Position numbers and translations under genes: made by a program. Below, piece by piece: positions 25,148 through 43,034 of a stretch of 64,000 nucleotides of DNA. Source of the DNA: Rhodoferax sp. WC2427 (lineage in GTDB: Bacteria > Pseudomonadota > Gammaproteobacteria > Burkholderiales > Burkholderiaceae_C); the NCBI RefSeq assembly GCF_040822085.1, contig NZ_CP162006.1, positions 4,278,001-4,342,000 on the forward strand, written 5' to 3'. Position 1 is the stretch's first letter. Every line of letters begins with the position of its first letter. The notes below the pieces were generated by a model. That model had not been told where the DNA came from, did no database searches, and saw only the letters and a program-made list of their open reading frames with translations.

Positions 25148-28879
<3,732 letters not shown>

Positions 28880-29726: not shown

Positions 29727-29921
29727 ACACTCACCGCCGATACCGCCACGGCGAACAATAGCCTGGCCGACTCTTGAATGACGCCATAATTTAAGCCCTA
29801 TACGGGGGCATTTGGGCAATCCCCTCAGCCGCCACCAACGGGCCCCCAGGTCCCTGCCAGCCTTTACCGTGCTGTGCGGCAGACCAAGCTGTTCGCCAGG
29901 TTTCACCAGGAGGTGTTGTCG

Positions 29922-30821
29922 ATGGCCGAGAAAGATGACAGGACCAAGGCAGAGACCCCCGCGGGCGGGTCCACAAACCTGGCACTTGAATGGGCCAAGG
30001 TTCTGCTACCCGCGCTCATTTCCTGGCCCCTGGCGGGAGTCGCCATAGCTTTGCTCTTTCAAAGCTCCATTACCAGCCTCGCGGACAGGTTTTCGCAGTC
30101 CACCGAGAGCATGGCGGAAATCGGGCCTGTGAAGATCAAATTTGGCGCACCCGTGCTCCCACCCCAGTACAGAACCTCGGCCCCACAAGTACCTACCGAG
30201 ATCATCGACTTGTCTTCGTCCATCGGCGAGGTGGGAGATACCGGACCCGAAGGAACCACCGTCGGGTTTGCCCTCGCCTATGCCATCCAGGCGAGAGCCG
30301 CAAAAAATGGCCAAAAAGGGCTCCAGGTGTCAGCGCGAGGCATTTACTCCCTGGCGCAAAAGTTTGATGAGTTTCCTGGTGAGACCTATGAAGGCACATC
30401 GCTACTGGGCGGACTGCAAGGGATGAAGAAAGTCGGGGTCTATCTTTTGAAGGACTGGCCTTACGCCTCAAAGGAACCCCCGAAAGCCTCTGTGAAACCG
30501 GCCTTCAAGATCAGTGCCTTCAGGCAAGCGAAGTCCATACCAGAAATTCTTTCGGCGCTCCGCGATGGCAATGTTGTCGCTGCCACCATTGAGATAACCG
30601 GGGACTTTGACCATCCGGAAAAAGACGGCCGCGTGATCCTTAAACTGCCTTTGCAAACGCAGGGGGGCAAGGCCATCGCCATCGTCGGGTACAACGCGGC
30701 AACCGCTGAATTCAAGTTTGCGAATGACTGGGGGGCCGCCTGGGGTCAAAACGGCTTTGGGCTGATCAAGGACACGGATCTGGCCAGGATCCTTGTTGAC
30801 GGCTACACGGTGGATTTCTGA
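29922..30821 (+). CDS. Membrane-anchored papain-fold protein without catalytic residues
   Basis: This is a 299-residue protein with one membrane segment (residues about 27-47) and a C-terminal domain that follows the C1A papain fold. Recognisable blocks are DTGPEGTTVGFALAYAIQ, where DQGxCGSCWAFA is expected; a middle part with SARGIYSLAQKF, EGTSLLGGLQGMKKVGV and KDWPYA; then GGKAIAIVGYN and FKFANDWGAAWGQNGFG. The catalytic Cys aligns with T113, the His with K250 and the oxyanion Gln with T107, while the Asn (N268) and Trp remain. It should therefore be an inactive papain-like domain, perhaps peptide-binding. The ATG is preceded by AGGAGGTG at ideal spacing. No operon partner is visible. Confidence 0.75.
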   Translation: MAEKDDRTKAETPAGGSTNLALEWAKVLLPALISWPLAGVAIALLFQSSITSLADRFSQSTESMAEIGPVKIKFGAPVLPPQYRTSAPQVPTEIIDLSSSIGEVGDTGPEGTTVGFALAYAIQARAAKNGQKGLQVSARGIYSLAQKFDEFPGETYEGTSLLGGLQGMKKVGVYLLKDWPYASKEPPKASVKPAFKISAFRQAKSIPEILSALRDGNVVAATIEITGDFDHPEKDGRVILKLPLQTQGGKAIAIVGYNAATAEFKFANDWGAAWGQNGFGLIKDTDLARILVDGYTVDF

Positions 30822-32600: not shown

Positions 32601-32653
32601 CTATACTTTTGATAGCTGCCCATGCTTAATCTACCAGCGCTAGTGGCCGATTT
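32601..32653 (+). repeat. Dispersed intergenic repeat, copy 4 (contains cinA start codon)
   Basis: CTATACTTTTGATAGCTGCC then AGCGCTAGTGGCCGATTT. It begins 3 nt after the pgpA stop, and the cinA ATG and first 11 codons lie within it. Confidence 0.8.
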
Positions 32654-33113
32654 AATGCTTGAAAACAATTGCTTCCTGGCCACCGCCGAGAGCTGTACCG
32701 GCGGCATGATTGCGGCGGCCTGCACCGATTTGGCGGGGTCGAGCACCTGGTTCGAGCGCGGCTTTGTGACCTATTCCAATGCCGCCAAAACCGAGATGCT
32801 GGGGGTGGACGCCGCGCTGATCGCCCAGCACGGTGCGGTCAGCGAAGCGGTAGCGCGGGCCATGGCGGCGGGGGCGCTGGCCCATTCGCATGCCCAGGTG
32901 GCGGTGGCGGTGACCGGCGTGGCCGGGCCCAGCGGCGGCAGTGCCGACAAGCCGGTGGGACTGGTGTGGTTCGGCTTTGCGCTGGACGGGCAGGTGCACG
33001 CGGAATGCCAGCATTTCCCCGGCGACCGGGCCGCCGTGCGGACGGCCACGGTGCGGCATGCGCTGCTGCGGGTGGTAGAGCTACTTACTCCGCGTCCGTC
33101 GCCAGGCGGCTGA
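32622..33113 (+). CDS. pncC: CinA C-terminal domain protein, nicotinamide-nucleotide amidase
   Basis: This is a 163-residue stand-alone CinA C-terminal domain, the PncC type that deamidates NMN to nicotinate mononucleotide for NAD recycling. Family motifs are LATAESCTGGMIAA (residues about 19-32), GFVTYSNAAKTEMLGV and VAVTGVAGPSGGSADKPVG. The first 11 residues (MLNLPALVADL) are encoded by a dispersed repeat. The last codons overlap the 3' end of the convergent PhcQ-like gene by 29 bp and extend past the usual C-terminus. Confidence 0.9.
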   Translation: MLNLPALVADLMLENNCFLATAESCTGGMIAAACTDLAGSSTWFERGFVTYSNAAKTEMLGVDAALIAQHGAVSEAVARAMAAGALAHSHAQVAVAVTGVAGPSGGSADKPVGLVWFGFALDGQVHAECQHFPGDRAAVRTATVRHALLRVVELLTPRPSPGG

Positions 33114-34065
33114 TGCGCTCGATGGCGTCGGCCATCCAGTCTGGCTGGAGTGCAGCGGGTTGGCCGCCGGTGCGCACAGACACCGCCAAGCCCTCGGGGT
33201 GGGCCTCGATGTGCACACTGCCGCCCCAGTGCGACAACCACGCCAGCCAGGCCACGGTGGCAGACGACGGCGGCTCGTGCGACGCCGCATCCAGCAGCCA
33301 GGTGAGTACCGGGCGGCTGGTGAGCCTGGCGGTATCGCCCTGTAACAGCACCTGGCCCGGCAGCGCATCGGCCAGCGCCTGCAAGGCCGCGCTGGCGTTG
33401 TCCACCCCGGCAAAGCGTGGCTGCAGGCTGGCCAGGGCCTGGCCGATGGCAATGCTGCGCTGGGCTTCGTACTGCATCAGCTCGGCGTGGTCCATGCTGC
33501 GCCAATCGATGGGCGGCAGCGCGCAGCCGCTGAGTTCGGCCGCCTGAAGGTAGAGCTGCAAGCCGAGTGGGTAGTCCACATGCAGAAAGCCGGCGCACAC
33601 CACCGCCAGCTGCGAGATGCGGCTGGCCAGCAGCTGCTGGCGCTGCACGGCCATCTTTTCGCGCAGCAGGTCGTCGCGCTCGCAGCGGGTTTCGGCCAGC
33701 TCCAGGGCGTTGCGCATGTCGGAGCGCAGCAGCTCCAGGTCCCAGGGCTTGGTGACGTAGCGGTAGATTTCGCCGGTGTTGATGGCCTCAATGGCCTCGC
33801 CCAGTTCGGAGTAGGCGGTGGTGAGCATGCGCACCATCTGGGGGTAGTGCTCGCGGGCGTAGCGCAGCAGCTCGTTGCCGGTGGCTCCGGGCATGCGCTG
33901 GTCGGTGATGAGCACGGCGATCTCCGCGCCCCGTGCCCGCAGCACGGCCTTGCCGTCCTCTACCGACAAGGCGGTCAGCACCGGGGCCATGGGGTTGATC
34001 AGACGCTCAAAGTATTTGAGGGCCATGGGTTCGTCGTCAACGTACAGGATCTTGTCGGGTCTCAT
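33085..34065 (-). CDS. phcQ: PhcQ-like response regulator
   Basis: This 326-residue protein has an N-terminal receiver domain (residues about 4-125: ILYVDDEP, phosphoacceptor D55 in LITDQRMPG, Lys in YVTKPW) and a C-terminal region of about 190 residues without a known DNA-binding or enzymatic motif. It is the last gene of a four-gene operon that matches phcB-phcS-phcR-phcQ of Ralstonia in gene order and domain types; PhcQ there is a receiver protein that modulates quorum-sensing output. The ATG at 34065 overlaps the phcR-like gene by 29 bp. A TTG 24 nt upstream is the alternative start. Confidence 0.75.
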   Translation of the reverse strand: MRPDKILYVDDEPMALKYFERLINPMAPVLTALSVEDGKAVLRARGAEIAVLITDQRMPGATGNELLRYAREHYPQMVRMLTTAYSELGEAIEAINTGEIYRYVTKPWDLELLRSDMRNALELAETRCERDDLLREKMAVQRQQLLASRISQLAVVCAGFLHVDYPLGLQLYLQAAELSGCALPPIDWRSMDHAELMQYEAQRSIAIGQALASLQPRFAGVDNASAALQALADALPGQVLLQGDTARLTSRPVLTWLLDAASHEPPSSATVAWLAWLSHWGGSVHIEAHPEGLAVSVRTGGQPAALQPDWMADAIERISRLATDAE

Positions 34066-35254
34066 AGGGGGCCTTGCCAGGTTTATCAACAGAGAAAGAC
34101 TGGAAATACAGGGCTACACAGGCCCCTTGTCCAGCGACGGAAGTAATCGCAATGCTGCCGCCCATGGACTCCAGCACGCGACGGCACAGCAACAAACCCA
34201 TGCCATGGCGGCCGGTGTCGGCGTGGACGGCGATGGGCCGCAGGGTCAGGCGCTCCAGCAGCACCGGTGCGATGCCGGGGCCGTTGTCGGCAATCCGGAT
34301 GCAGGTGCTGTGGGTGTCGGCATCAAAGCCCAGCCAGATGTGCAGGCCGGGCTGGGGCCGGTCGCGCAGGGCCAGCAAGGCGTTTTTGGTCAGGGTGCAC
34401 AGCACCAGGTACAACAGATCGCGGCGGCCTGGCAGTACAAAGTCGGCCTCGATCTGGGTGCTGACCCAGGCACGCTCGTCTCCCACGAAGGGGTATTCGT
34501 CCAGCAGGTACTGGAGCAGGCTGCTGGCCATCACCGGTTGGGGCGCGTCCGGGGCACCGGGGTAGGCATCGCGGGCCGACTGCACGAAGCTGGAGACCAA
34601 CGACTGGCAAAAAAGGGTCTGGCGTTCGGCCGACACCAGGGCCTGCAGGATCTCGCCCGGCGCGGCCTCGGCAAACAGGGCCATGCCGGCGATGTCCGCC
34701 GGGGCGAACCCAGGGGCCAGGTGCCGCTCTTTCACGGCCGTGAGGTAGCCGCGTACGGCACCCAGCGGGGCCATCAGTTCGTGGGCTAGAAAGCCCACGG
34801 TGTCGCGCAGGGCGGTGACGCGGTGGGCGTGCACCATGTGCTGCAGCGCCTGCTGGTGGTGCAGGGCCAGCGCGTCGCGCAAGGCCTGGCGGGTGGGCTC
34901 GAAGGCCAGCGGCTTCTCCAGGATACGGAAGACCTGGCCCTCGTTGACGGCGGCAATGGCCAGCGCTTTGTCGGCATGGCCAGTGGCCAGCATGCGCACC
35001 ATCGGCCGGTACTCCCGCAGCACGGTGCGCAGCAGGTCCATGCCGTCGCGCTGGGGCATGCGGTAGTCGGTGACCAGCACGGCAATCTCCGCCGAATGGT
35101 CCTGCAGCAGCGCCAGCGCCGCGTCCACGCTGGTGGCGGTGAGGATGGTGAATTCATCGGCGAAGCTGCGCGCAAACCATTTGCAGGACAGGGGCTCGTC
35201 GTCGACGAACAGGACGCTGGCAGCGTGCGCAAAAGCCAGGGAAGTTTCAGACAT
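34037..35254 (-). CDS. phcR: PhcR-like receiver-histidine kinase hybrid
   Basis: This 405-residue protein has an N-terminal receiver domain (VLFVDDEPL, D63 in VLVTDYRMPQRDG, K in ILEKPLAF) followed by a histidine-kinase-like module. The module has an HELMAPLGAVRGYL H-box, a KNALLAL N-box, IADNGPGIAP and GMGLLLCRRVLESMGG. A receiver joined to a C-terminal kinase domain, with no output domain, is the unusual make-up reported for PhcR of Ralstonia. The start overlaps the upstream kinase stop by 8 bp, and the 3' end overlaps the next receiver gene. The function, relaying from the PhcS-like kinase, is inferred from that parallel. Confidence 0.78.
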   Translation of the reverse strand: MSETSLAFAHAASVLFVDDEPLSCKWFARSFADEFTILTATSVDAALALLQDHSAEIAVLVTDYRMPQRDGMDLLRTVLREYRPMVRMLATGHADKALAIAAVNEGQVFRILEKPLAFEPTRQALRDALALHHQQALQHMVHAHRVTALRDTVGFLAHELMAPLGAVRGYLTAVKERHLAPGFAPADIAGMALFAEAAPGEILQALVSAERQTLFCQSLVSSFVQSARDAYPGAPDAPQPVMASSLLQYLLDEYPFVGDERAWVSTQIEADFVLPGRRDLLYLVLCTLTKNALLALRDRPQPGLHIWLGFDADTHSTCIRIADNGPGIAPVLLERLTLRPIAVHADTGRHGMGLLLCRRVLESMGGSIAITSVAGQGACVALYFQSFSVDKPGKAPYETRQDPVR

Positions 35255-36596
35255 GTTGGTGGGCCAGTCCCAGGTCAAACGCAAATTCGGTCCACGCACC
35301 GGGCTCGCTGCTGACGCGCAAGGAACCGCCGTGGCGCTGCACGATGGCATAGCTCACACTCAGGCCCAGGCCCAGACCCTTGCCCACGTCGCGGGTGGTG
35401 AAAAACGGTTCGAACACCCGGGCCAGGTGCCCGGGCTGGATGCCGGTGCCGTTGTCGCGCACGGTGACTTCCAGCCGGTCGCCCTGGCGCACGGCCCGCA
35501 CCTCGATGCGCGGGTCGGTGCGGGCGGCTTTGTGCAAGGCCAGCGCGGCATTGCCCAGCAGGTTGATGAGTACGCCGATCAGCGCAGGCTCGTCGCCGCG
35601 CACGTGGGTGTCCATGGGCAACTCGACCTGCACGGCGATGCCTTTGAGCTCAAAGCCCGTCAGGCGCAGCGCCGATTGCAGGGCTTTTTCAAACAGGAAG
35701 ATGCGGCTGCTGCTGGCATCGCCGGGCTGCTGGTAGGCAAAGGTCTTCAGGTCGGAGACGATGCTTTGCACCCGCTGCATGCCCTCTTTGGCATCGCCCA
35801 GGCTTTCCTGCAGGTCGGCGCTGCGCAGCACCGCGGGGTCCATCAGCGACATGTTGAGCGCCATCAGGCTGTAGTTGACGGGGTTGTTGACCTCGTGCAG
35901 CAAGCCCGCCGCCAGGGTACCCAGCGCGGCCATCTTTTCCTGCTGCATCATGTGGCCCTTGATCTCGGCCAGCGCCTGGTTGGTGTGCTGCAGCGCCGCG
36001 TTCTTCAGCTGGATTTCTTTTTTGAGCCGAAACGACAGCCAGCGCCAGCGCTCGTTGTAGACGGCCAAAGCAATGCCAATGATGGCGTAGAACAGCATGA
36101 ACAAGGCATTCCCCCCAAATGCATGAAAGTCCTGGATACCCCCCTGGCGCCAGACACAGGCGACCCCGTAAGCCGCCAGCGTCAAGGTGCCAAAAAACAC
36201 GGCTTCCATGAAGGAGATGGGCAAGAAAAAAGCCATGCCGCTGAGCACAAAGGTCAGGCCGACAAAGTAGATCGACTGCTCGCCGTTGGTTTTGTAAATC
36301 ATCCAGGACACCATGGCCTGCGGCACACACAGCCAGAAATACGTCAGCGCCTTGATGTGGTCGCGGCCCCAGGCGTACCGGTAGCTCCACAGCACCAGCC
36401 CAATCACCACGCAGGCAGCGACGCGCACATGCAAAAACTCCGGGGCAAACCGGGGGTAAAAAATATGGTCCAGCGCCAGGCCGGCCAGCACCAGCACGAT
36501 GGTCATCAGGCAGGCGGCCCGACTGTTGAAAATCAGGTAGCCGTGCAGCTCTTGCCGGTAGGCAGCATCTTTGCGCGGCTGGATGAAGCGCATCAT
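35247..36596 (-). CDS. phcS: PhcS-like membrane sensor histidine kinase
   Basis: This is a 449-residue sensor kinase whose N-terminal half (residues about 25-180) holds six membrane segments and almost no periplasmic domain, as expected for a kinase sensing a lipophilic signal. The H-box is GLLHEVNNPVNYSL with H234. ATP-binding motifs are LLGNAALALHKA, VRDNGTGIQPGH and GLGLGLSVSYAIVQRHGG. It starts on an ATGA overlap with the methyltransferase stop. In Ralstonia, PhcS detects 3-hydroxy fatty acid methyl esters; the same role here is inferred from operon structure. Confidence 0.8.
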   Translation of the reverse strand: MMRFIQPRKDAAYRQELHGYLIFNSRAACLMTIVLVLAGLALDHIFYPRFAPEFLHVRVAACVVIGLVLWSYRYAWGRDHIKALTYFWLCVPQAMVSWMIYKTNGEQSIYFVGLTFVLSGMAFFLPISFMEAVFFGTLTLAAYGVACVWRQGGIQDFHAFGGNALFMLFYAIIGIALAVYNERWRWLSFRLKKEIQLKNAALQHTNQALAEIKGHMMQQEKMAALGTLAAGLLHEVNNPVNYSLMALNMSLMDPAVLRSADLQESLGDAKEGMQRVQSIVSDLKTFAYQQPGDASSSRIFLFEKALQSALRLTGFELKGIAVQVELPMDTHVRGDEPALIGVLINLLGNAALALHKAARTDPRIEVRAVRQGDRLEVTVRDNGTGIQPGHLARVFEPFFTTRDVGKGLGLGLSVSYAIVQRHGGSLRVSSEPGAWTEFAFDLGLAHQHV

Positions 36597-38020
36597 GCCG
36601 CCACGCCACCCACGGTGGATTCGGAAAAAATGTTCACTCCGGTGGCATCGGTGTAGACCGTGGTGTTGCACAGGCCCGGCGGCAGAATGCGCTGCACATC
36701 GGCCTCGTCGCGGCAAATCAAATGCCACTCCAGAAAGTGCTCCATCCAGCGCCGCTCGGGGTTGCTGGAATGCACATTGGTCAGCAGCAGCTTGCCGCCC
36801 ACACGCGACTGGTTGACCATGTACCGGATCAGTCGGTTGCACACCTTGTCCGTCAGGTAGTCGAACAGACCGGCGCAGTACACGTAGTCAAACCGCTCGG
36901 CCTCGGACAGTGGCTGGGCCAGGTTGCCGCGTTTGAGCAACTGGTGGACCGAGGCGTGCTGCAGCGTGAGGTGCAGGGTTTTTCCGGTGCCTTGGTGCAG
37001 GGCGTCCAGCATCCGGCGGGTATGGTCCAGCGACTCTTCGCTGAAATCCACCAGCACAAATTCCAGGCGGTCGAAATGCGGATTCGTCTGCACCAGCCGC
37101 TGGATTTCCAGGGCCGGGCCGCAGCCGATGTTCAGCACCCGCATCGGGCGCCGGGCCTGCACGGCCTGTGCGGCCAGGGCTTCCAGCCGGTCGAACAAGA
37201 TGCCGATACGGTTGCGGTGGGCCTGCGCCACACCAGCCTGCAAAAACATGAAGTTGACCAGCTGGAAATAGCTGCTGGGGCCCTGCCGGGGGTCGCCCAC
37301 GATCTGGTTCACCATCTCGTAGTCGCCCGCATAGCCCAGCGGCTTGGAGAAGGTGCGGTGCACAAACGGTGCCCGCAGGATCAGCGGATGGATGGCGCTC
37401 TGGGCAAAGCTGCGGTGCAGGGGGACCAACGCATCGGGTACCAAGGCGGCCTCCCGGTCAAACCACCGCAGGTACTCGCGGCCCTTGTGCAGCAACGGTG
37501 TCCCCAGTTCCACAAACACTTCGGGCGGGATGCGGCCGTCGGCATCGCGCGGCAGACGGCCCGCTACATCCAGCTGGTCGATCCAGCGCGCCACCTCGAA
37601 AAAATAGGCCCGCATTTCACTCACCACCACCTGGTAGTCGCGGCGCACGTTGAAGCGGCTGGCCCAGTCCTGTACAAAAGCCGTTGCAGCCTCCCCGGCG
37701 GCAGCGGGGCCTGCCTGGATGGGCCCTACCTCGTTCCAGGCATCCATCAAGCCCACCGACACCACCACCATCAGGCCGGTGTTGACCAGGCTGACCACCA
37801 CCGCCCGGCCCTGGTACACGATCTGCTGGGCAGCGCGCACGGTCAGATCGTGCAACACCTCACTCACCTGCACCAGGGCATCGGGGTTGTAGACCTCCAT
37901 CACCAAGGAGCCCCGCTGGTGGCTGATGAGGGTAGCGCGCACCGCATCGTGCTTACTGTTGCGGAAGCTGATCACCGGATGGATGGCGGTTAAGGACTGC
38001 ACGGGATGGGGCACCAGCAA
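36593..38020 (-). CDS. phcB: PhcB-like SAM methyltransferase, likely 3-hydroxy fatty acid methyl ester synthase
   Basis: This protein of about 475 residues has a C-terminal class I methyltransferase domain: motif I VLNIGCGPALEIQRL near residue 293, followed by EFVLVDFSEESLDHTRR and YCAGLFDYLTD. An N-terminal region of about 270 residues includes a beta-rich segment (residues 25-95) that could be PilZ-like. This matches proteins annotated as extracellular-factor 3-hydroxypalmitate methyl ester biosynthesis protein (PhcB). Ralstonia PhcB methylates 3-hydroxy fatty acids to make the autoinducer. The TTG start at 38020 is the longest option; later GTG codons are possible. It is first in the operon and coupled to the PhcS-like gene. 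Confidence 0.8.
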   Translation of the reverse strand: MLVPHPVQSLTAIHPVISFRNSKHDAVRATLISHQRGSLVMEVYNPDALVQVSEVLHDLTVRAAQQIVYQGRAVVVSLVNTGLMVVVSVGLMDAWNEVGPIQAGPAAAGEAATAFVQDWASRFNVRRDYQVVVSEMRAYFFEVARWIDQLDVAGRLPRDADGRIPPEVFVELGTPLLHKGREYLRWFDREAALVPDALVPLHRSFAQSAIHPLILRAPFVHRTFSKPLGYAGDYEMVNQIVGDPRQGPSSYFQLVNFMFLQAGVAQAHRNRIGILFDRLEALAAQAVQARRPMRVLNIGCGPALEIQRLVQTNPHFDRLEFVLVDFSEESLDHTRRMLDALHQGTGKTLHLTLQHASVHQLLKRGNLAQPLSEAERFDYVYCAGLFDYLTDKVCNRLIRYMVNQSRVGGKLLLTNVHSSNPERRWMEHFLEWHLICRDEADVQRILPPGLCNTTVYTDATGVNIFSESTVGGVAA

Positions 38021-38325
38021 GAGTTAGACCTGCAGGAATTCACGGGCTAGCGGTCAAGGCGGAATGGCCGCACACGGGCAACATGTTGTACGTTCGGCAG
38101 GTGAAAGTCAAAATGGACGCGATTGCCAACCCCATGGCAATTGCCCGGATACCGCCTGTGCCCCACCCTACACGCCCATGTTTTGTCACGTTCAGCCTTC
38201 CGCAAAACCCCAAACAAGCCCCCAAAATTCCCGCTTGTAGCGGCCACACGAAATGCAAATTTCACCGGTAGTCTATACATTACCAATGCATTCAAAATGT
38301 AATAAATTGAAACTCGAATAAAGCC
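38021..38325. other. Divergent region between phcB-like and NTF2-like genes
   Basis: These 305 bp carry the promoters for two divergent genes. I see no convincing gene; a 62-codon frame in it is not protein-like. The right end is AT-rich and holds a 24-bp dyad (38277-38300). Confidence 0.5.
38277..38300. promoter_or_regulatory. Candidate operator dyad upstream of the phc-like operon
   Basis: ACATT and AATGT flank the perfect palindrome AATGCATT with 3-bp spacers, giving a 24-bp dyad with 9 of 12 positions symmetric. It lies 26 bp before the NTF2-like start and about 256 bp before phcB. Confidence 0.4.
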
Positions 38326-38864: not shown

Positions 38865-39686
38865 TCAGGTCATGCCGTGGCACTTTTTGTACTTTTTGCC
38901 GCTGCCGCAAGGGCATGGGTCGTTGCGGCCCGGCGTGGCTTCGACGCGCACGGTTTCCACCCGCGGGCCGATGCTGCGCCACAGCGCGCGCAGGTCGTAC
39001 ACCGCCCACAGGGCTTCGCCGAAGGCTTCCATGCGGGCCATGGACATGCTGGGGGGCGGTTCTTCACCGCCTTCTTCGTCGGGGCCATAGGCGGAGACTT
39101 CGGCCGGGCCGGTGTCGTCTTCGGTGAGTGCCACGATGGCCTCCAGGCCGGCATCCAGCGCCTTCACGGCTTCTTTGTCCTTGGCCGGAGCCACCCACTC
39201 TTCGGGCCAGGATTCGACCGCAAACATGAAGCCCAGGGCCCACACCTGGCCGAAGGCGGGCAGCGGACCGTCCTCTTCCTCTTCGCCCTGCAGGGCTTCG
39301 GCACGTTCTTCGGGGCTGAGCGACAGCATCATGCCGCGCACGTCCAACACCTCGGGGGAGTAGGCTTTCTCGTCCGACAGGTTGCGCACATCCTCGGCAT
39401 CCAGCGCCGCGGTCACCTCGTCCCAACGGCGATTCCATAACGCCATGAAGGCTTCTTTTTGGGCTTCGTCGGCAAAACTGCCTTCGCCGTCTTCGCCGAT
39501 GTCGAGCAGCACCGACAGATATTCCTCGGGGGCGATGGGCTTGCGGCCACAGATGACGGCGGCCATGAAGCCTTCGCAAAACTCCCACTGCGGGGTTTCG
39601 TCATAGCGCTCGCGCAGATCTTCCAGGATCAGGTCCAGGGCATCAAAGTCTTCGGGTTGCAAGGGGGAAAGGGGAGTCGAGGTCAT
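38865..39686 (-). CDS. YecA/UPF0149-family protein with C-terminal SEC-C zinc motif
   Basis: This 273-residue acidic protein has an UPF0149 (YecA) domain (residues about 15-175, with [18 protein letters not shown] and [17 protein letters not shown]) and a C-terminal SEC-C motif, [19 protein letters not shown]. The SEC-C segment is the same zinc-binding tail that lets SecA bind ribosomes and SecB, so a role near translation or secretion quality control is plausible. The ATG at 39686 is chosen over an upstream start because the extra residues are not conserved-looking. Confidence 0.85.
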
Positions 39687-39741
39687 GAAGATCACCGGTG
39701 GCAAAGCCCCAGTTTAGCCAGTAGCATCGCGCCCAGGAGAA

Positions 39742-41406: not shown

Positions 41407-41836
41407 CTGCTTGCGCTGATGTACCCAGCGCTAGCAGCCTTTTTTTCATGGAAAGCACAGCTTTGTCCTTGCTCAGCAGCAGCGCCTGGTGGGCCACGGC
41501 CAGGTCGATAAAGCACTGGTCGTCGGGGTCTTTGCAGATGGCTGTAACGCGCGGGGCCACCTCCACCAGGGTGGCGTAGCGGTCGAACCGGGCCAGCACG
41601 TCGGCCTTGCTGAGTTGGTAGTAGGCCAGCTTGGGTACGATGTGTGCGTAGTCCAGCACCCGCTCCAGCTCGTTGCGCATGTGCTGTGTGGCCAGCCAGC
41701 GCAGTTGGCCACTGGCCAGGGCGGGCTGCAAGGGCTTGGAGGCCTTGTCGTCAAAGATGAACACGTCCAGCACGATGTTGGTGTCGATCACCACCGTGTG
41801 CGGGCCCGCGCCCAGCTCCAGCGGCTTATTTGGCAT
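41387..41836 (-). CDS. PIN-domain protein (putative endoribonuclease)
   Basis: This 149-residue protein has a PIN-like nuclease fold: VVIDTNIVLDVFIF with the first acidic residue (about residue 18), a central Glu in MRNELERVLDY, and the acidic C-terminal cluster CKDPDDQCFIDLAVA. Such proteins are often annotated as PIN-family toxins, but there is no antitoxin gene beside it, and its start overlaps the RNA methyltransferase stop by 11 bp, which suggests a housekeeping link. The C-terminal 17 residues or so are encoded by a dispersed repeat. A GTG start 12 nt upstream is possible. Confidence 0.78.
   Translation of the reverse strand: MPNKPLELGAGPHTVVIDTNIVLDVFIFDDKASKPLQPALASGQLRWLATQHMRNELERVLDYAHIVPKLAYYQLSKADVLARFDRYATLVEVAPRVTAICKDPDDQCFIDLAVAHQALLLSKDKAVLSMKKRLLALGTSAQAAIQFVA
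41391..41447 (+). repeat. Dispersed intergenic repeat, copy 5 (shared by two gene ends)
   Basis: GCTACAAATTGAATAGCTGC then CAGCGCTAGCAGCC and a T-run. It encodes the last codons and stop of the FMN protein on the plus strand and the C-terminus of the PIN protein on the minus strand. Confidence 0.85.
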
Positions 41837-43034
41837 CGGTGTCGGCACCGCGCCGCGCCGACCCGGCCACCATGTCGAAGCGGAACAAACGGCATTCGAT
41901 GGGGCCGTTCCACATCGGCACGCGGCGCGATTCCTTCAGGCGCATCTTGCTGGGCAGCTTCAGGTCGGGCGTGAGGATCCAGCCGGTCCAGCCCGCGTAG
42001 TTGCGCTTCCAGTGGGTGGCCAGTTGGGGAAAGAAGTCGCTGCCACCGTCGTCGGTCTGCGCGGCTTCGCGGCGACCGGCCACACCGGCCACCTCGATCC
42101 GTTCGCCGTAGGGCGGGTTCAGCAGCATCACGCCCGAGGGCGCGGGCGGCATGCGCTGCAAGGCATCGCCACCGCGGAACTCGACCACGCCCGTGACCCC
42201 GGCGCGCTCGGCATTGCGGGTGGCGAAATCGACCATCCGGAAAGCCACATCGCTGCCAAAAATGGGGGCCTGCGGCTCGTGCTCGGCCTCGGCGGCCTGG
42301 TCCTGGATGGCCGACCACACATGGGGCTGGAACGGCAGCAGCTTCTCGAAGCCAAAGCGGCGCAGGCTGCCCGGGGCGATGTTGCAGGCAATCTGCGCAG
42401 CCTCGATGGCGATGGTGCCGCTGCCGCAGCAGGGGTCGTAGAAGGGCGTGGTGCCGTCCCAGCCGCTGGCGGCAATCATGGCGGCGGCCAGGGTTTCCTT
42501 CAGCGGAGCATCGCCCTTGTCTTCACGCCAGCCGCGCTTGAACAGCGCGTCACCCGACGTGTCGATGTAGATGGTGGCGTGCTCGGTGGTCAGGTGCAGG
42601 TAGATGCGCGCGTCGGGCCACTGCACGTTCACATCGGGGCGCACGCCAGTCTTGAAGCGGAAACGGTCGGCCACCGCGTCTTTCACCTTCAGGGCGGCGA
42701 AGTTCAGCGAGGTCAGCGGGCTGTGTTGCGCGGTGACTTCGATCTTGAAGCTCTGCTTGGGCGTAAACCAGATCTCCCAGGCCACGTTGCTCGCGGCCTC
42801 GTACAGGTCTTGCTCGTTGCGGTAGGGCGTGCTGGACAGCTCGATCAGCACCCGCTGCGCCAGGCGGCTGTGCAAATTGAGCCGCATCGCATCGCGCCAC
42901 GACGAGCGCACCAGCACCCCGCCCCGGTGCGAGCGCAAATCCTCGCCCTGCAGCCCGGTAATCGCGTGCACCTCTTCGGCCAGCAGCTCTTCCACGCCAG
43001 CGGCGCAGGGTAAAAATAATTGGAGTTGGTTCAT
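41826..43034 (-). CDS. THUMP-domain 23S rRNA methyltransferase (RlmL N-terminal type)
   Basis: This 402-residue RNA methyltransferase has an N-terminal ferredoxin-like/THUMP region (residues about 5-155) and a C-terminal Rossmann domain with YDPCCGSGTIAIEAA (motif I) and the catalytic LNPPYGERI (NPPY) motif. It corresponds to the guanine-N2 methyltransferase half of E. coli RlmL, which modifies G2445 of 23S rRNA, without the fused RlmK part. The exact target is inferred from family similarity. Confidence 0.88.
   Translation of the reverse strand: MNQLQLFLPCAAGVEELLAEEVHAITGLQGEDLRSHRGGVLVRSSWRDAMRLNLHSRLAQRVLIELSSTPYRNEQDLYEAASNVAWEIWFTPKQSFKIEVTAQHSPLTSLNFAALKVKDAVADRFRFKTGVRPDVNVQWPDARIYLHLTTEHATIYIDTSGDALFKRGWREDKGDAPLKETLAAAMIAASGWDGTTPFYDPCCGSGTIAIEAAQIACNIAPGSLRRFGFEKLLPFQPHVWSAIQDQAAEAEHEPQAPIFGSDVAFRMVDFATRNAERAGVTGVVEFRGGDALQRMPPAPSGVMLLNPPYGERIEVAGVAGRREAAQTDDGGSDFFPQLATHWKRNYAGWTGWILTPDLKLPSKMRLKESRRVPMWNGPIECRLFRFDMVAGSARRGADTDAK

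Follow-up and report, generated by a model that had tools for sequence, protein, structure and literature searches.

The 64,000-nucleotide stretch of the Rhodoferax sp. WC2427 genome analyzed here (the window) carries, on its minus strand, four genes whose products and order support their identification as a phcBSRQ operon. What the genome encodes is not the whole Phc system, as neither a PhcA nor a PhcX/LqsR orthologue was found in it. No PhcA was found in the 26 other carriers from the same family either, whereas it is present in all five of the Ralstonia/Cupriavidus-type carriers tested, and this contrast is the new element of the present analysis. The reading that we favor, with a probability of about 0.65, is that the operon is genuine and was inherited in place, and that it would specify a Phc signaling module with an output other than PhcA, its target probably being something else given that the genome search for PhcA came up empty.

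The original prediction had described four overlapping minus-strand genes, and this arrangement stands: the frames were confirmed and the junctions phcB/phcS, phcS/phcR and phcR/phcQ overlap by 4, 8 and 29 nt, respectively (Table 1). The longest frame of phcB spans 36593-38020 from a TTG start (475 aa), but GTG 38002 is more likely to be the start, because the same start is seen in two same-genus relatives and because the database entry P0001, identical to the window PhcB over P0001's length, is also of 469 aa. Pfam recovers a SAM methyltransferase in PhcB, HisKA+HATPase_c in PhcS, Response_reg+HATPase_c in PhcR (with a HisKA match below the cut-off) and Response_reg alone in PhcQ, whose C-terminus is without a match; NCBIfam models match the products of the operon only far below their cut-offs. 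No DNA-binding domain is detected by Pfam in PhcR, in keeping with its earlier description as a receiver-kinase protein devoid of an output domain. Identities to the PhcB, PhcS, PhcR and PhcQ of Ralstonia pickettii (locus L076) are 53, 51, 40 and 44%, that of PhcB extending over the full length and the alignment of PhcQ running along its C-terminal part, which bears out the assignment of the first as a PhcB-like methyltransferase and of the last as a PhcQ-like receiver protein. The histidine placed at position 234 in the HEVNNP motif of PhcS is correctly numbered when the ATG at 36596 is taken as the start. As for the six transmembrane segments claimed for PhcS, a hydropathy scan gave four separate N-terminal peaks, and two weaker ones were discerned by eye from the sequence; six membrane helices are plausible.

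Table 1. Coordinates of the phc operon, its recurrent neighbors and PhcX-like genes of three MAG loci (window positions unless a locus is named)
Feature	Coordinates	Strand	Remarks
phcB, predicted SAM-dependent methyltransferase	36593..38002	-	469 aa from GTG 38002
phcS, membrane sensor histidine kinase	35247..36596	-	449 aa, H234 in HEVNNP
phcR, receiver (D63) and kinase module (H158), without output domain	34037..35254	-	405 aa
phcQ, receiver (D55) and C-terminal part without Pfam match	33085..34065	-	326 aa
Region 5' of phcB, up to divergent SnoaL-like gene	38003..38325	.	Probable operon promoter region (inferred)
CinA-type neighbor	32622-33113		Pfam
UPF0149-type neighbor	38865-39704		Pfam
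RlmL-type neighbor	41826-43034		Pfam
PhcX-like gene, MAG locus	L072:432-1544		
PhcX-like gene, MAG locus	L075:1876-2871		
PhcX-like gene, MAG locus	L087:6001-7008		

The four genes thus lie on one strand in the order B-S-R-Q, with each product of the expected type, and both order and domains match R. pickettii, as had been anticipated; there, the operon is preceded by a further gene, for which its position 5' of phcB and the available part of PMC10653808 suggest the name PhcX. The reciprocal best hits proposed as a check were obtained in one direction only: against the whole Rhodoferax genome, R. pickettii PhcS finds the window phcS first (464.6 bits vs 87.2 for the second match) and R. pickettii PhcR finds the window phcR first (259.5 vs 94.9 bits, the second match being the window's own phcQ). 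PhcB is present in a single copy, and further PhcS/PhcR-like matches lie at 1.20 and 2.26 Mb (ORF beginnings inspected by eye). Separately, two large hybrid-kinase-like open frames of 1271 and 1256 aa, one in the window (~26708-27364, minus strand) and the other ~75 kb apart from it (G000:C1:4380144-4380800), show near-equal scores against PhcS and PhcR, and are perhaps a duplication. A promoter scan 5' of phcB returned no sigma-70-like site or consensus promoter, and Rfam yielded nothing at the operon and one tRNA elsewhere in the window.

The functional residues are kept throughout the alignments (rows length-filtered beforehand, window included, some loci duplicated): PhcB R22 is an arginine in 112/112 rows and PhcS H234 a histidine in 109/109, while H158 and D63 of PhcR are retained in 86/86 and D55 and R149 of PhcQ in 107/107. 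In R. pseudosolanacearum, activation of PhcA needs autophosphorylation of PhcS at H230, according to the accessible portion of PMC11960443, and the counterpart of this residue in the window is H234. R22 of the window PhcB (counted from GTG 38002) and R22 of R. pickettii PhcB lie in a common VR.T motif, and the available text of a study in R. solanacearum reports less signal in supernatants for PhcB R22C (PMC6989110). The same partial source gives a further change, R154C in PhcQ, of which R149 in the window PhcQ might, at a guess, be the counterpart. Two structural impressions were not supported by profiles. The order of helices and strands in the PhcQ C-terminus suggested a degenerate histidine kinase, and two Foldseek rows (6ob8, 8vc9) aligned REC-kinase hybrids along the protein; however, profile comparisons gave E-values of 0.26 with the PhcR kinase module and 0.088 with that of PhcS, with unrelated controls at 0.33-0.46 and the positive comparison of the PhcR and PhcS kinase module profiles at 3.1e-24, the first PhcQ profile comparison having aligned the receivers alone and a second structural look having covered only the receiver. 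A PilZ-like barrel at the PhcB N-terminus, an impression of modest confidence from strand order, found no support in Pfam.

The placement of the operon outside Ralstonia and Cupriavidus by the original prediction is correct; as an occurrence it was already in print, the available part of a 2023 study placing the phc cluster beyond Ralstonia, though solely in Betaproteobacteria (PMC10653808). A database search gave 4109 PhcB relatives at E<=1e-10 (7996 candidates scored); among the 120 matches listed, many are JGI entries named extracellular factor (EF) 3-hydroxypalmitic acid methyl ester biosynthesis protein, the closest with an organism name is from Rhodoferax sp. (84% identical), and the named organisms include Rhodoferax, Polaromonas, Hydrogenophaga and Variovorax, which points to Comamonadaceae as the probable name of the window's family. 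A scan of species genomes yielded at least 590 stretches, at least 565 of them encoding a PhcB relative, and the best 80 of these derive from Cupriavidus, Paraburkholderia/Burkholderia, Ralstonia, Janthinobacterium, Oxalobacteraceae and MAGs, a list that leans to Cupriavidus because the first query sequence was a Cupriavidus PhcB. Among 399 sampled genomes of the order, 15 have a PhcB match, 10 of which, counting that of the window's genome, cover the full length with >=52% identity, the other five being partial at 27-30%; the B-S-R-Q order recurs in all nine of the other full-length carriers, which argues that the four-gene arrangement is more than chance.

In the window's family, PhcB at E<=1e-60 was found in 27/397 sampled genomes and 7/126 genera, a sparseness that marks the operon as dispensable. 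The family PhcBs fall on one side of a branch with a support of 100 in the PhcB tree, and the 27 family loci (window included, some truncated at a contig edge or at the limit of the retrieved sequence) have neighbors in common, namely CinA in 13/27, UPF0149 in 16/27 and an RlmL-type gene in 18/27. Both observations fit an operon inherited in place within the family, presumably with many losses, and on the same evidence a recent horizontal capture in the window's lineage is not supported. A dedicated regulator beside the operon was also considered and set aside, since the recurring neighbors with a Pfam identity are housekeeping-type genes. Elsewhere in the window, positions 29874-30821 on the plus strand encode a protein of the papain family (Peptidase_C1), close to the N-terminus of which a hydrophobic segment was noted by eye. 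As a further observation, Paraburkholderia translucens carries two phc operons (L064 and L098) with PhcBs of different clades, ~14 kb apart on one contig, one with a complete PhcR and the other without a PhcR frame.

The PhcA searches started from an R. pickettii LysR gene (L111:5122-6159), ~10 kb downstream of phcQ in its genome (G399), which we take to be PhcA from its LysR similarity, its linkage to phc, and the sequence and gene order in R. solanacearum. Matches at 76-77% identity occur in G400 and G401 (Cupriavidus), G149 and G288 (placed as Cupriavidus-type by its genus code), in each of which PhcA and the operon are 22-24 kb apart. In the order sample, with at most five candidates scored per genome, PhcA at E<=1e-60 is seen in 2/399 genomes, G149 and G288, both of which are full-length PhcB carriers. 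In contrast, the genome search that had been suggested for a phcA LysR orthologue found none in the window's genome, where the best LysR match reaches 32% identity (E 4.7e-28, 98.9 bits). The other 26 family carriers (G296, G272, G048 and 23 more) likewise gave no PhcA, the best match being 33% identical at E 1.5e-37, and for four of the 23 nothing passed E<=1e-24. No full-length match above 33% was obtained from Paraburkholderia xenovorans (G402), from Janthinobacterium (G403) or from the MAG G036, and none at E<=1e-60 from G237, G080 and G182. Since a Cupriavidus LysR paralogue itself reaches 123.7 bits against the PhcA query, most of the carrier scores can be seen as paralogue background; the highest, at 129.2 and 128 bits (G607, G670) and 127 bits (G612), exceed it marginally.

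A functional PhcA counterpart could nevertheless have diverged to the point of looking like a paralogue, an obvious candidate being the Rhodoferax genome's own best match at G000:C1:4735789-4736700 (L113). In a LysR tree of 27 rows, 25 of them different (all from phc carriers, namely the window's genome, those searched first and those of the order sample), the five rows of the PhcA set are closed at 100/99 and L113 sits in a separate starred group; it groups with close relatives from the phc carriers G272, G296, G048 and G403. One LysR of G048 (29% identity) joins PhcA at 97/96, albeit by a branch whose length, 2.44 changes per column, led the program to flag it as unsure, and from this position on a very long branch beside PhcA it follows that some carriers may have a strongly diverged PhcA. 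As against this, PhcA retains 76-77% identity between Ralstonia and Cupriavidus, i.e., more than the 53% that PhcB retains between Ralstonia and the window, and L113 scores below the Cupriavidus paralogue, stands apart from PhcA in the tree and lies ~420 kb from the operon. We regard such a diverged counterpart as unlikely, and L113 as a PhcA replacement is only a lead. As for PhcX/LqsR, none was found beside the window operon or elsewhere in the genome (best E 6e-6). In Hydrogenophaga, Cupriavidus and Ralstonia, phcX adjoins the phc genes according to PMC10653808. In three MAG loci, the gene immediately 5' of phcB and divergent from it is PhcX/LqsR-like, with 47-49% identity to the PhcX of R. 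pickettii (Table 1).

The operon itself varies chiefly at PhcR. A complete receiver-kinase PhcR occurs in 23/27 loci of the family (two are without PhcR and two end at a contig edge), in 30/32 Cupriavidus-type loci (one of them cut before phcQ; the other two with split frames), in 14/31 from Paraburkholderia/Burkholderia, in 5/5 from Ralstonia and in 9/10 other named loci. A receiver-only form of 133-137 aa is present in 17/31 Paraburkholderia loci, and PhcR is absent from both Janthinobacterium loci and from one of the ten other named loci. Within the window's own genus, G674, which shares 95% identity with the window in PhcB, has an internally deleted phcR with its two ends left between phcS and phcQ (L165:7450-7800), and in G726 phcQ begins within ~40 nt after phcS with no phcR between them (L180:7500-7750); phcB, phcS and phcQ remain as open frames in both. 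Thus, PhcR has repeatedly been reduced or lost beside kept B, S and Q. This agrees with the mild phenotype of phcR deletion in R. pseudosolanacearum, which, in the available portion of PMC8578825, changed 22.9% and 26.4% of the positively and negatively quorum-dependent genes, respectively, as compared to 96.8% and 66.9% upon deletion of phcQ.

Under the favored reading of a Phc module with another output, PhcB would convert a 3-hydroxy fatty acid into its methyl ester, a diffusible signal, which PhcS would detect at the membrane and answer by autophosphorylation at H234. The phosphoryl group would then pass to the receiver of PhcQ and, less importantly, to that of PhcR, and phospho-PhcQ would act on a target through protein-protein contact, PhcR serving as a side arm; both this phosphotransfer route and PhcQ as the output protein are inferred. 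PhcQ of R. pseudosolanacearum binds to PhcA and maintains its stability, as stated in the accessible part of PMC13320629; with PhcA not found here, the partner of PhcQ should differ from that in Ralstonia. The conservation of PhcB and PhcS suggests that the signal would be of the same class as in Ralstonia, i.e., a 3-hydroxy fatty acid methyl ester. A methyltransferase fold does not determine which substrate is used, 3ocj, the best structural relative of PhcB among solved proteins, has no known function and none of the solved chains is matched by the PhcB sequence, such that the operon might make and sense some other methylated signal; given that PhcB is 53% identical to its R. pickettii counterpart over the full length, that R22 is conserved and that PhcS is co-inherited, we deem this improbable. 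That the operon is a decaying remnant which, in the absence of PhcA, persists without function, as the broken or missing phcR of G674 and G726 and the carriage by just 27/397 family genomes might hint, is very improbable, for none of the four window frames is interrupted and their catalytic residues are conserved, G674 and G726 still have open phcB, phcS and phcQ, and no PhcA was found in any tested carrier outside Ralstonia/Cupriavidus, meaning that its absence need not be recent.

In comparison with known systems, the window operon shares with the phcBSRQ of Ralstonia (the R. solanacearum complex, with R. pickettii L076 as the one compared) its order, domains, REC-kinase PhcR, H-box histidine and PhcB R22, and differs in the identity of 40-53%, the location between CinA and UPF0149 genes and a genome in which no PhcA or PhcX/LqsR was found. 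The Cupriavidus system is similar in that 29/32 Cupriavidus-type loci have B-S-R-Q with a complete PhcR, and differs in having a well-conserved PhcA within 22-24 kb (G149, G288, G400, G401). Paraburkholderia and Janthinobacterium resemble the window in possessing B, S and Q with no PhcA found (G402, G403, G237), whereas their PhcR is receiver-only in 17/31 and absent in 2/2 loci, respectively, as opposed to complete in the window. LqsA-LqsS-LqsR and CqsA-CqsS are density-sensing circuits, and the Lqs synthase is a PLP enzyme. The parallel with them lies in the membrane histidine kinase (partly after PMC10653808, as far as available); the window synthase is instead a SAM methyltransferase, and no LqsR orthologue was found in the genome.

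These patterns may be accommodated, with roughly even odds, by a Phc cassette that is both older than PhcA and separable from it: outside Ralstonia and Cupriavidus it would stand alone, with PhcQ acting on another partner and PhcR as an optional side arm lost time and again, and the Ralstonia/Cupriavidus line would have gained PhcA later, the gene now lying close to the operon there. In the available part of PMC10653808, no discussion of PhcA-free carriers was found, and its Figure 7b may show such carriers; nor does a report of a PhcA-free phc operon appear among the titles and beginnings of abstracts listed on phc genes in Burkholderiales.

The accounts of Phc signaling considered here run through PhcA in Ralstonia, and carriers for which the PhcA search was negative allow one to ask what PhcQ does alone. 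Likewise, the loss or reduction of PhcR with B, S and Q kept constitutes a natural experiment. Beyond this, the Rhodoferax-type carriers raise the question of whether 3-hydroxy acid methyl esters might be a wider language of Betaproteobacteria.
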